This document shows positions 22,112 to 24,648 of a stretch of DNA of 64,000 nucleotides, piece after piece (within the stretch, counting starts at the first letter, position 1; each line of letters begins with the position of its first letter). The position numbers were made by a program, and so were the translations under genes. The stretch lies in NCBI GenBank assembly GCA_902621165.1, contig CACNKX010000005.1:1-64000 (forward strand). Reading direction: 5' to 3'. The stretch is from an uncultured Alphaproteobacteria bacterium (GTDB lineage: Bacteria > Pseudomonadota > Alphaproteobacteria > HIMB59 > GCA-002718135). The notes under the pieces are model-generated. The model was not told where the DNA came from. It made no database searches and was given only the letters and a program-made list of their open reading frames with translations.

Positions 22112-22717
22112 TTACTTGGATAATTTAATTTTACTTTCAGTTTTGTTTACGAGTCTTTTAATGTTTTCTGTGTGTTTAAGATAAATAATTAAAGTTAAAT
22201 AAATAAAGAAAATTAGAATATAAAAATTAAAATTAATAAAAATATAATAAGCTTGAGCTACTAAAATTCCAATTAAAGATCCAAGAGAAGAGTATTTACT
22301 TACAAAAGCAGTAACAAGCCATACTAATAAAAATAAAAGTGCAATGTAAGGATTAAGACCAAATAAGAAACCAATATACGTTGCAACACCTTTTCCACCT
22401 TTAAATTTCAACCAGACAGGATAGATGTGACCTAATATGGCAAAGTGACAGAGAAGTATTTTATTCAATAAAGAAATATCTTGAAAATACATTTGTAAAA
22501 TGAAGAACGGAAGAAAGCCTTTAAAAATATCAAAACAAAGAACAATGAATGCTACAAATTTATTTCCTGTTCTTAAAACATTTGTTGCACCTACATTTCC
22601 AGAACCAACCTTTCTAATATCTCCCAAGCCAAATAATTTTGTAAAAATCAATGCAGAGGGTAATGATCCTATTACATAAAACAATATGATTAATGATAAA
22701 CTACTTACTAAAGTCAT
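22112..22717 (-). CDS. plsY: Glycerol-3-phosphate acyltransferase PlsY
   Basis: PlsY transfers an acyl group from acyl-phosphate to glycerol-3-phosphate at the inner membrane, the step after PlsX (57264-58277 here). The 201-residue protein has five or more membrane segments and the three family motifs: GSLPSALIFTK, GSGNVGATNVLR, and GHIYPVWLKFKGGKGVAT. Its start overlaps the pyrB end by 17 bp. A 65 bp gap separates it from topA. Confidence 0.96.
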   Translation of the reverse strand: MTLVSSLSLIILFYVIGSLPSALIFTKLFGLGDIRKVGSGNVGATNVLRTGNKFVAFIVLCFDIFKGFLPFFILQMYFQDISLLNKILLCHFAILGHIYPVWLKFKGGKGVATYIGFLFGLNPYIALLFLLVWLVTAFVSKYSSLGSLIGILVAQAYYIFINFNFYILIFFIYLTLIIYLKHTENIKRLVNKTESKIKLSK

Positions 22718-23846
22718 CTCTGTTTTTAATAATTAAGTCTAAGCATGCCATTCGTACTGCAACACCCATTGCGACCTGTTCTTGTATTAAGCTCCTCGTG
22801 ACGTCATCGGCAAGTTTGGAGTCTATTTCTACACCACGGTTCATTGGACCTGGATGCATAACGAAAGCATTTTTTTTTGCATATTTAAGTTTATTGTAAT
22901 CTAAACCATACTTTTTAAAATAAGTCTTTTGATTTGGCATTATTTTCCCAACTATTCTTTCTTTTTGAATACGTAGCATCATAACAATATCACAATTCTG
23001 TAATCCCTTTTTCATTTCTGTATAAACGTTCACAGGTAGTTTATTTAAACTTTTTGGTAACCATTCTTTAGGTCCAATAACATTTATTTTTGCACCTAAC
23101 CTTGATAGTATGATTATGTTTGATCGAGCAACACGACTATGTAAAATATCCCCGCAAATAGCAATTTTTAATTTTGCAAAATTTTCAAATTTATTTTTTA
23201 TAGTAAGTGCATCTAATAACGCTTGTGTGGGATGCTCATGACTACCATCACCAGCATTAATTACAGACGCATCTACTGTTTCTGAAATTTTTTTACTAAT
23301 TCCTCCCTCTGGATGTCTGACAATTAAAACGTCAGGATTCATTGAATTAATAGTAGTCATAGTATCGAGTAAGGTCTCACCTTTATTAATAGAACTATCT
23401 TTTACCACTACATTAATGAGATCTGCTCCTAGCCTTTTAGCAGCAACTTCAAAACTTGTTCTTGTTCTTGTTGAATCTTCAAAAAAAAGATTAAATATTG
23501 TTCTTCCTTCTAAAACATTAATTTTTTTAATTTTCCTTTTATTAAAAGTTATATATTTTTTAGATTCATCTAAGATGTGCTCAATTTCTTTCTTGGTTAA
23601 ATCAGCTGTTTCTACTAAATGAATTTTTTTAAAAATATTTTTACTTCTTTTTAATTTGATATTTGTTTTTGAAGAAATTGATGAATAATATTTTAAAGCT
23701 ATTTTTTCCGCATCTTTAAGAATTTTTGAACCTGTAGATGATCTGATTGCTTTTAATTTTGGCATTTTCACTTTCATTTGCCAATATTTTGAATTTTCTC
23801 TTTTATATAATTTTATGTGTCCTGATTTAAGTAGCTTTGAATTCAT
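22701..23846 (-). CDS. pyrB: Aspartate carbamoyltransferase with an extra integrase-like N-terminal segment
   Basis: The C-terminal ~310 residues are a complete catalytic aspartate carbamoyltransferase (first committed step of pyrimidine synthesis): FFEDSTRTRTSFE with S125-T130 binding carbamoyl phosphate, GDGSHEHPTQALLD, CGDILHSRVARS, and HPGPMNRGVEID. The protein is 381 residues rather than about 310 because residues 1-70 precede the normal start. That segment (LYKRENSKYWQMKVKMP, then RSSTGSKILKDAEKIALKYY) resembles the N-terminal arm-binding region of tyrosine recombinases. No ATG occurs between residue 28 and the ATCase start, so the extension is probably translated. pyrC, often adjacent, is absent. 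Confidence 0.93.
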   Translation of the reverse strand: MNSKLLKSGHIKLYKRENSKYWQMKVKMPKLKAIRSSTGSKILKDAEKIALKYYSSISSKTNIKLKRSKNIFKKIHLVETADLTKKEIEHILDESKKYITFNKRKIKKINVLEGRTIFNLFFEDSTRTRTSFEVAAKRLGADLINVVVKDSSINKGETLLDTMTTINSMNPDVLIVRHPEGGISKKISETVDASVINAGDGSHEHPTQALLDALTIKNKFENFAKLKIAICGDILHSRVARSNIIILSRLGAKINVIGPKEWLPKSLNKLPVNVYTEMKKGLQNCDIVMMLRIQKERIVGKIMPNQKTYFKKYGLDYNKLKYAKKNAFVMHPGPMNRGVEIDSKLADDVTRSLIQEQVAMGVAVRMACLDLIIKNRDDFSK

Positions 23847-23875
23847 ATGTGTAAATAATGTGTTAGTATGTGTAA
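23847..23875 (-). promoter_or_regulatory. Three phased ATGTGT(A/T)A direct repeats upstream of pyrB
   Basis: Within the 38 bp between ruvX and pyrB, the octamer ATGTGTAA occurs at 23847-23854 and 23868-23875, with ATGTGTTA at 23858-23865 between them (plus-strand reading). The starts are 11 and 10 bp apart, so the copies fall on the same helical face. The copy nearest pyrB begins next to its start codon. The arrangement suggests a protein-binding site or a very compact promoter region; no function is shown. Confidence 0.4.
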
Positions 23876-23884
23876 ACTAATTTA

Positions 23885-24343
23885 TTAATTATTTCTATAT
23901 CTATCTAAATATCCTTGTAAGATATAAGCAGCCGATTGTTGATCAAGTTTTCTTTTGATCTTTGTTTTACTCAAATCGGCCTTTCTCATTTCTTTAAAGA
24001 TTACATCTGATGAAAATCTTTCATCCCAAAGAGCTGTAGGTTTCTTAAAAAAGGTTTGAAGATTAATATTAAAATCTCTTACTAATTGGCTTTGTTTGTT
24101 TTCACTATTATCCAGGCTAATTGGCAGACCAAGAATAAATCCTCCAATTTCATACTCTTTCAAAATATCTTTCATGATAATTAAATCTTTATTAGTTCCT
24201 TTTCTTTGGATAATTGAAAGAGGTGTAGCGATTATTTTTGATCTATCGCTTACTGCAACACCAATCGTTTTAGTTCCTAGGTCTAGACCTACAAGTATTT
24301 GTGATGTATTAAGGCCATCGATTAAATTATTTTGATCATTCAT
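23885..24343 (-). CDS. ruvX: RuvX/YqgF-family RNase H-like protein
   Basis: A small RNase H-fold protein, implicated in Holliday junction resolution and 16S rRNA maturation (YqgF). I choose the ATG at 24343 (MNDQNNL), giving 152 residues; an ATG 13 codons upstream would overlap the gatC start. Motifs are GLDLGTKTIGVAVSD with the first catalytic Asp, FILGLPISLD, and LWDERFSS with the second, and a C-terminal QQSAAYILQGYLDR. It is divergent from gatC with 17 bp between the starts, and lies upstream of pyrB on the same strand. Confidence 0.93.
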   Translation of the reverse strand: MNDQNNLIDGLNTSQILVGLDLGTKTIGVAVSDRSKIIATPLSIIQRKGTNKDLIIMKDILKEYEIGGFILGLPISLDNSENKQSQLVRDFNINLQTFFKKPTALWDERFSSDVIFKEMRKADLSKTKIKRKLDQQSAAYILQGYLDRYRNN

Positions 24344-24360
24344 ATAATGGAGCTCATAAA

Positions 24361-24648
24361 TTGAAGATTGATAAAAATACAATAAATAAAATTGCTCGTC
24401 TATCTAGAATAAAGTTAGATGATAAAGAATCTGAAGATTATATTAAGGATCTTAATTCCATTTTAGACTGGGTAGAGCAGTTAAATGAAGTTAATACTGA
24501 AAATGTAGAACCGTTAAGTAACATATCATCATCAATTTTACCTAAAAGAGAAGATGTATCTAATGATACTAATTCTAGTGAGGAAATTCTTGAAAACGCT
24601 CCTGACAAACTCGAAGGTTTTTTTGCAGTACCAAAGGTGGTAGAATAA
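24361..24648 (+). CDS. gatC: Asp/Glu-tRNA amidotransferase subunit C
   Basis: GatC stabilises the GatAB amidotransferase that converts Glu-tRNA(Gln) or Asp-tRNA(Asn) to the amide forms. The 95-residue protein has the classic INKIARLSRIKLDDKE start and LNSILDWVEQLNEVNTENVEPL motif, and ends with the GatA-binding FFAVPKVVE. The start is TTG, supported by a GGAG eight bases upstream and the absence of an ATG nearby. Its stop overlaps the gatA ATG (TAATG). Confidence 0.95.
   Translation: MKIDKNTINKIARLSRIKLDDKESEDYIKDLNSILDWVEQLNEVNTENVEPLSNISSSILPKREDVSNDTNSSEEILENAPDKLEGFFAVPKVVE

Follow-up and report, generated by a model that had tools for sequence, protein, structure and literature searches.

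The 64,000-nucleotide stretch of DNA analysed here (the window; contig CACNKX010000005.1 of an uncultured Alphaproteobacteria bacterium from a likely marine group) carries on its minus strand pyrB, which encodes the catalytic chain of aspartate carbamoyltransferase (ATCase) behind an N-terminal extension and is directly preceded by three direct repeats. An earlier note on this DNA had read the extension as the remnant of an integrase gene that could either give PyrB a DNA-binding ability or be tolerated junk. The locus comprises the following features:

22701..23846, minus strand: pyrB, whole open reading frame including the stop codon; ATG start, 381 amino acids, a single open frame.
23679..23846, minus strand: relative of an integrase N-terminal (arm-binding type) domain, pyrB codons 1–56; based on two-way profile matches, alignment, AlphaFold and the ratio of nonsynonymous to synonymous differences (pN/pS).
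23628..23678, minus strand: variable linker, pyrB codons 57–73; differs in sequence and by whole codons in length among relatives.
22704..23627, minus strand: ATCase catalytic chain domain of PyrB, codons 74–381 (PF02729, PF00185; NF002032).
23847..23876, minus strand: three direct repeats, a predicted operator and likely former arm-type sites; based on conservation, comparison with integrases and matrix score.
23876-23867, minus strand: repeat one, TTTACACATA.
23865-23857, minus strand: repeat two, TAACACATT.
23855-23847, minus strand: repeat three, TTTACACAT.
23885..24382, minus strand: ruvX/yqgF-like gene upstream of pyrB, with the start as given in the list of open reading frames.

The extended pyrB gene and its conservation

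Comparison with curated models assigned residues 76–217 of PyrB to OTCace_N and residues 76–372 to the PyrB model NF002032, with scores above the curated cut-offs (PF02729, 145.7 bits; PF00185, 76.9 bits; NF002032, 403.4 bits against 263), leaving about 73 residues ahead of the enzyme. The position of the pyrB start in the earlier note, some 70 residues before the ATCase domain, is thereby borne out, as is its statement that no ATG lies between residue 28 and that domain: in-frame ATG, GTG or TTG codons ahead of the ATCase domain occur in the window only at residues 1, 24, 26 and 28. Among 24 genus loci with an intact gene, the start codons common to all before the ATCase domain are those of residues 1 and 24. 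Single TTG codons between residue 28 and the domain, not common to the rest, were found in L019, L022 and L023, and an additional ATG within the first ATCase residues occurs only in L021–L023. Since 10 of 12 sampled gene starts in the window are without a Shine-Dalgarno-like match, the absence of one at pyrB is uninformative.

The comparison set consisted of 61 genomes, namely the own genome, 36 others from the same genus and 24 from a sister family. The extension was detected on pyrB in 28 genomes of the genus, to which G011 adds the first codons at a contig end, and the eight other genus genomes (of 37) contain no pyrB start. No credible match to the extension was obtained in the 24 sister-family genomes, the best (E 0.008) falling inside a dihydroorotase-like frame; among the weak matches in related genomes, L057 is a dihydroorotase-like frame and L060 and L061 are likewise unrelated frames. 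At the two sister-family loci that were read, PyrB comprises 297 residues, starts with GTG, lacks the extension and overlaps the ruvX-like gene.

A search of 5.8 billion proteins returned 673 matches to residues 1–72, and among the best 120 of these, 118 carry PF02729. Two apparent other fusions, of the extension with an IspH-like part (P0002) and with a sigma-54-like part (P0042), each rest on a single short metagenome contig that is probably chimeric; if real, they would mean that the domain is being passed on to further genes. Alignment of 23 relatives revealed that 24 of residues 1–56 are invariant, so the conservation that the earlier note had proposed to look for is present, and that the linker (residues 57–72) differs both in sequence and by whole codons. 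Based on 28 pairs of eight diverged loci (pS ~0.6), pN/pS amounts to 0.19 for codons 1–56 and 0.11 for 298 ATCase codons. The N-terminal domain of PyrB is under purifying selection. In one genome (G028, L063 1533-2685) the pyrB frame is shifted in the linker region, which may reflect a sequencing error or a real loss.

Relationship of the extension to integrases

The motif quoted in the earlier note (YKRENSKYWQ ... RSSTGS ... DAEKIALKYY) is present at the PyrB N-terminus as described, and profile searches in both directions support its reading as an integrase-like segment. A profile of integrase N-termini, built from 51 non-redundant sequences and searched against the 388 frames of the window, retrieved pyrB with E 2e-9 as the sole match below E 1, the next frame reaching 1.4. 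Conversely, a profile of the pyrB extension yielded 12 distinct matches outside the genus at E<=0.003, all of which are tyrosine-recombinase frames matched at their N-terminus, and 11 of these 12 frames also contain integrase-type Pfam models at E<0.1. Eight weaker class-level matches of the extension profile (E 0.03–0.09) were not counted; none of the three inspected is a recombinase frame. The same holds for L202, a phylum-level match with E 0.008.

Pfam, PHROG and NCBIfam gave no convincing family for PyrB residues 1–70 (best Pfam E 0.09), so that the profile match to a known integrase domain, which the earlier note had named as a test, was not obtained, while the custom profiles do link the domain to integrases. 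Taken by itself, that test would have been misleading; the related integrases, too, lack a Pfam match above cut-off over their own N-terminal segment. Phage records searched by tblastn with the extension gave no match, and the search by sequence against solved structures found none related (four weak matches with E of 0.65 or higher). The AlphaFold model of residues 1–75 (mean predicted local distance difference test score 83) predicts a beta-sheet plus helix, for which Foldseek returned no significant match. The profile searches show PyrB residues 1–56 to be homologous to the domain with which tyrosine recombinases begin at their N-terminus.

N-terminal arm-binding domains are also found in further tyrosine recombinases such as lambda Int and Tn916 Int. 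Among the closest known counterparts of the PyrB domain are the arm-binding domains of P4-like integrases and of the HPI integrase (3rmp, 3jtz); solved arm domains have a three-stranded sheet followed by a C-terminal helix, to which the beta-sheet plus helix predicted for PyrB may correspond. In integrases the arm domain precedes core-binding and catalytic domains, whereas in PyrB it precedes ATCase: no recombinase catalytic domain was found in the PyrB chain, the remainder of which is ATCase according to Pfam and NF002032. As a separate observation, many genomes of the genus contain a recombinase frame of ~365 residues (e.g. G029:C1:500849-501430) whose catalytic stretch is lengthened and which is possibly the chromosome dimer resolvase.

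Direct repeats at pyrB and at integrase genes

The three repeats (23847-23876) fall outside the interval covered by the earlier note (23637..23846) and were not listed there. They abut the pyrB ATG, with cores of the form CACA-N6-CACA-N7-CACA within 23872-23848, in steps of 10 and 11 nt. The stretch aligns without gaps in 28 distinct loci of the genus (29 rows, L024 and L048 representing a single place). The pattern was found in 29 of the 37 genus genomes, all 29 of which contain a pyrB start and show it directly before the extended start codon (in G011 followed by the first extension codons at the contig end), and in none of the 24 sister-family genomes. One more match each, of different sequence, occurs elsewhere in G025 and G030, and the reversed control pattern matched once, in G036. 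In eight diverged loci, 23 of the 30 positions of the repeat region are invariant, compared with 11 of 56 third codon positions in the domain and 60 of 298 in ATCase. Because repeat two follows repeat one at a distance of 10 nt, the conserved cores are in different codon phases, and the conservation is therefore at the nucleic-acid level.

To compare these repeats with those of integrases, the upstream DNA of ten profile-matched integrases was checked for CACA doublets, with L201, L203 and the viral-contig integrases L196 and L197 left out. Doublets 11 nt apart were present at five of the seven class-level matches, and L097 carries three repeats in steps of 11 and 10 nt. A tRNA scan of the seven loci placed, among the five with doublets, a tRNA gene close upstream of L096, L097, L099 and L100 and none at L098. 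No CACA doublet was found upstream of L110, L101, L198, L199 and L200. L198 (G615), the best single match of the domain profile, and L199 (G478) both lie outside the class and are among the best profile matches, yet have no upstream doublet; arm specificity therefore seems to vary within the integrase family.

The survey was extended to the best 80 of 346 relatives in species genomes, of which 77 remained after three with less than 150 nt of upstream DNA had been dropped. At 55 of the 77 integrase loci a CACA doublet lies no more than 200 nt ahead of the match start, with a triplet in seven, whereas 200 base shuffles gave a mean of 0.61 and a maximum of 4 loci. After removal of redundancy at 85% N-terminus identity, 35 of 50 integrases retain the doublet. 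Because ACACA reads the same backwards, a reversed-pattern control was uninformative (33/77, with similar counts for a looser pair), and 200 nt of gene body (0/77) and the opposite strand (0/77) were used instead. Without a preset motif, ACACA emerged as the most frequent 5-mer repeated at 10–11 nt (27 loci). A matrix built from 41 distinct integrase sites and scanned over the window ranked the pyrB triple first with 30.5 bits, against a highest score of 21.9 in 20 two-base-block shuffles; the next triples reached 10.3 bits (the pyrB site again, read with a shift) and 8.9 bits. The pyrB repeats also ranked first as a pair, but with 20.5 bits where the shuffles reached up to 20.3; the pair by itself is therefore not decisive.

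Arm-type sites flank the core as repeats at either inner side, and two elements showed such a layout. In G195, the tRNA-Met 3' end beside the integrase has a duplicate 24.7 kb away; the stretch between both copies (G195:C1:2480-27193) carries arm-type repeats near either end. On the element side, with the shared 24-mer as reference, these start at +78, +89 and +99 at the integrase end; their far-end counterparts start at −102, −90 and −84. Additional copies of the tRNA 3' end were found in G069 at distances of 22.3 and 37.1 kb, the nearer with matches at −101 and −83 and an extra TACACA in between, the third with one match at −101. The repeats of G195 and G069 fit arm-type sites because they lie near both tRNA-duplicated ends of the element. 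The family homologous to the PyrB domain includes many integrases beside tRNA genes, with upstream direct repeats that fit arm-type sites, as at pyrB.

PyrB as a predicted repressor of its own gene

With the domain under purifying selection and an integrase-type repeat conserved directly upstream, the sequence data favour a DNA-binding ability of the PyrB domain over the tolerated-junk option of the earlier note. We consider it probable that the integrase-homologous domain, likely captured together with the arm-type repeats, binds the three repeats and represses its own gene. With somewhat more reserve, but still on balance, we favour the fuller scenario that the autoregulatory circuit of an element, comprising arm domain and arm sites, was captured once before pyrB, turned PyrB into its own repressor and was kept genus-wide. 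The integrase-side end of the element, bearing its arm sites and the beginning of int, would have come between ruvX and pyrB, and a deletion would have removed the remainder of the element and fused the int N-terminus to pyrB, such that arm-binding domain and arm sites would have been acquired in one event as a ready-made autoregulatory loop. The PyrB domain would then bind the three repeats before its own start codon, bound PyrB would either stop transcription from passing the pyrB start or prevent it from initiating there, and the feedback loop would restrain the PyrB level. Since ATCase catalytic chains form trimers, one PyrB trimer could present three arms to the three repeats, which lie 10–11 bp, or about one helical turn, apart. 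The prediction of autoregulation for PyrB rests on the tRNA-linked integrases, many of which are predicted, and several shown, to repress their own gene. As the triple occurs nearly once per genome, autogenous control is suggested rather than a regulon; none was seen, the looser pair pattern matching seven other places in the genus, of which the three that were read (L230–L232) lie inside unrelated coding frames.

An alternative that we regard as unlikely places the control at the mRNA level, the domain binding the CACA repeats in the pyrB leader and blocking translation. The repeats do abut the ATG, no promoter-like match was found on the minus strand within the gap between ruvX and pyrB, and the gene order would allow pyrB to share a transcript with the upstream frame (23885..24382), which we take to be ruvX/yqgF-like from its sequence. 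However, the domain is related to segments of integrases that stand beside like repeats in DNA, in two cases near both ends of an element, and the spacing of 10 and 11 nt suits the DNA helix.

It is somewhat less probable again that domain and repeats have separate roles and make no contact, the domain serving folding, oligomerisation or partner binding and the repeats acting as a promoter or start-region element. The binding of domain to repeats is a prediction from sequence, and half of the ten profile-matched integrases checked have no upstream doublet; still, this type of domain stands beside a CACA repeat in 55 of the 77 related integrases, and domain and repeats are jointly absent from the sister family. 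That the fusion is a harmless, functionless one-off, such as a single deletion could produce, appears very improbable, given that the domain has a pN/pS of 0.19 whereas the linker varies, and that the repeat cores are invariant despite high synonymous divergence. Least credible is a start of translation at the ATCase domain with the extension never being made: two sister-family loci begin PyrB about there, with GTG, but the 24 genus loci share no ATG, GTG or TTG from residue 28 to the ATCase domain, only three have an ATG within the first residues of that domain, and the extension is conserved at the amino-acid level.

The predicted self-repression of PyrB can be compared with several known systems. 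Trigger enzymes, that is, enzymes doubling as gene regulators, include PutA, BirA and NadR. Like these, PyrB combines in one chain an enzyme and a DNA-binding-type domain that likely acts on its own gene, at which candidate sites are present; unlike in these, its DNA-binding part and sites are apparently derived from an integrase.

Integrase genes located at attL, including intS of prophage KplE1, are subject to negative autoregulation (PMC2951348), and IntS of the Mesorhizobium element ICEMlSymR7A represses itself (PMC11963761). In both, as at pyrB, the gene of the arm domain lies directly downstream of an arm-site region; there, the feedback has been shown and the product is an integrase, whereas PyrB is a biosynthetic enzyme for which the loop is predicted, and the arm motif of ICEMlSymR7A differs from the pyrB repeats (PMC11963761). 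MrpR of prophage SPbeta is described as a tyrosine-recombinase protein converted to a DNA-binding repressor (PMC10516654); unlike PyrB, it retains both the core-binding and the catalytic fold and is not joined to a metabolic enzyme. BzdR resembles PyrB in the fusion of a DNA-binding domain to an enzyme fold, here that of shikimate kinase, but this fold has lost catalysis and the regulator controls benzoate degradation genes (PMC3602430). Searches of the open-licence literature returned no relevant paper on an ATCase with an arm-binding domain, with autoregulation and DNA binding or with a DNA-binding N-terminal extension, nor on integrase arm sites with enzymes or AP2.

The regulatory subunit PyrI (PF01948) was not found above cut-off in any of the 61 genomes, many of which are incomplete, and the control search found it in 7 of 14 named genomes. 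If the proposed circuit is real, it would provide a feedback device for pyrimidine synthesis in small-genome bacteria in which PyrI was not found. It would also mean that an enzyme can acquire control over its own gene in a single step, with operator and DNA-binding domain arriving pre-matched from a self-regulating integrase. The long-standing idea that DNA-binding domains are recruited by enzymes would thereby become directly testable, with the sister family (without) and the genus (with) representing the states before and after the event, and further housekeeping genes may contain integrase arm domains that escape family models.
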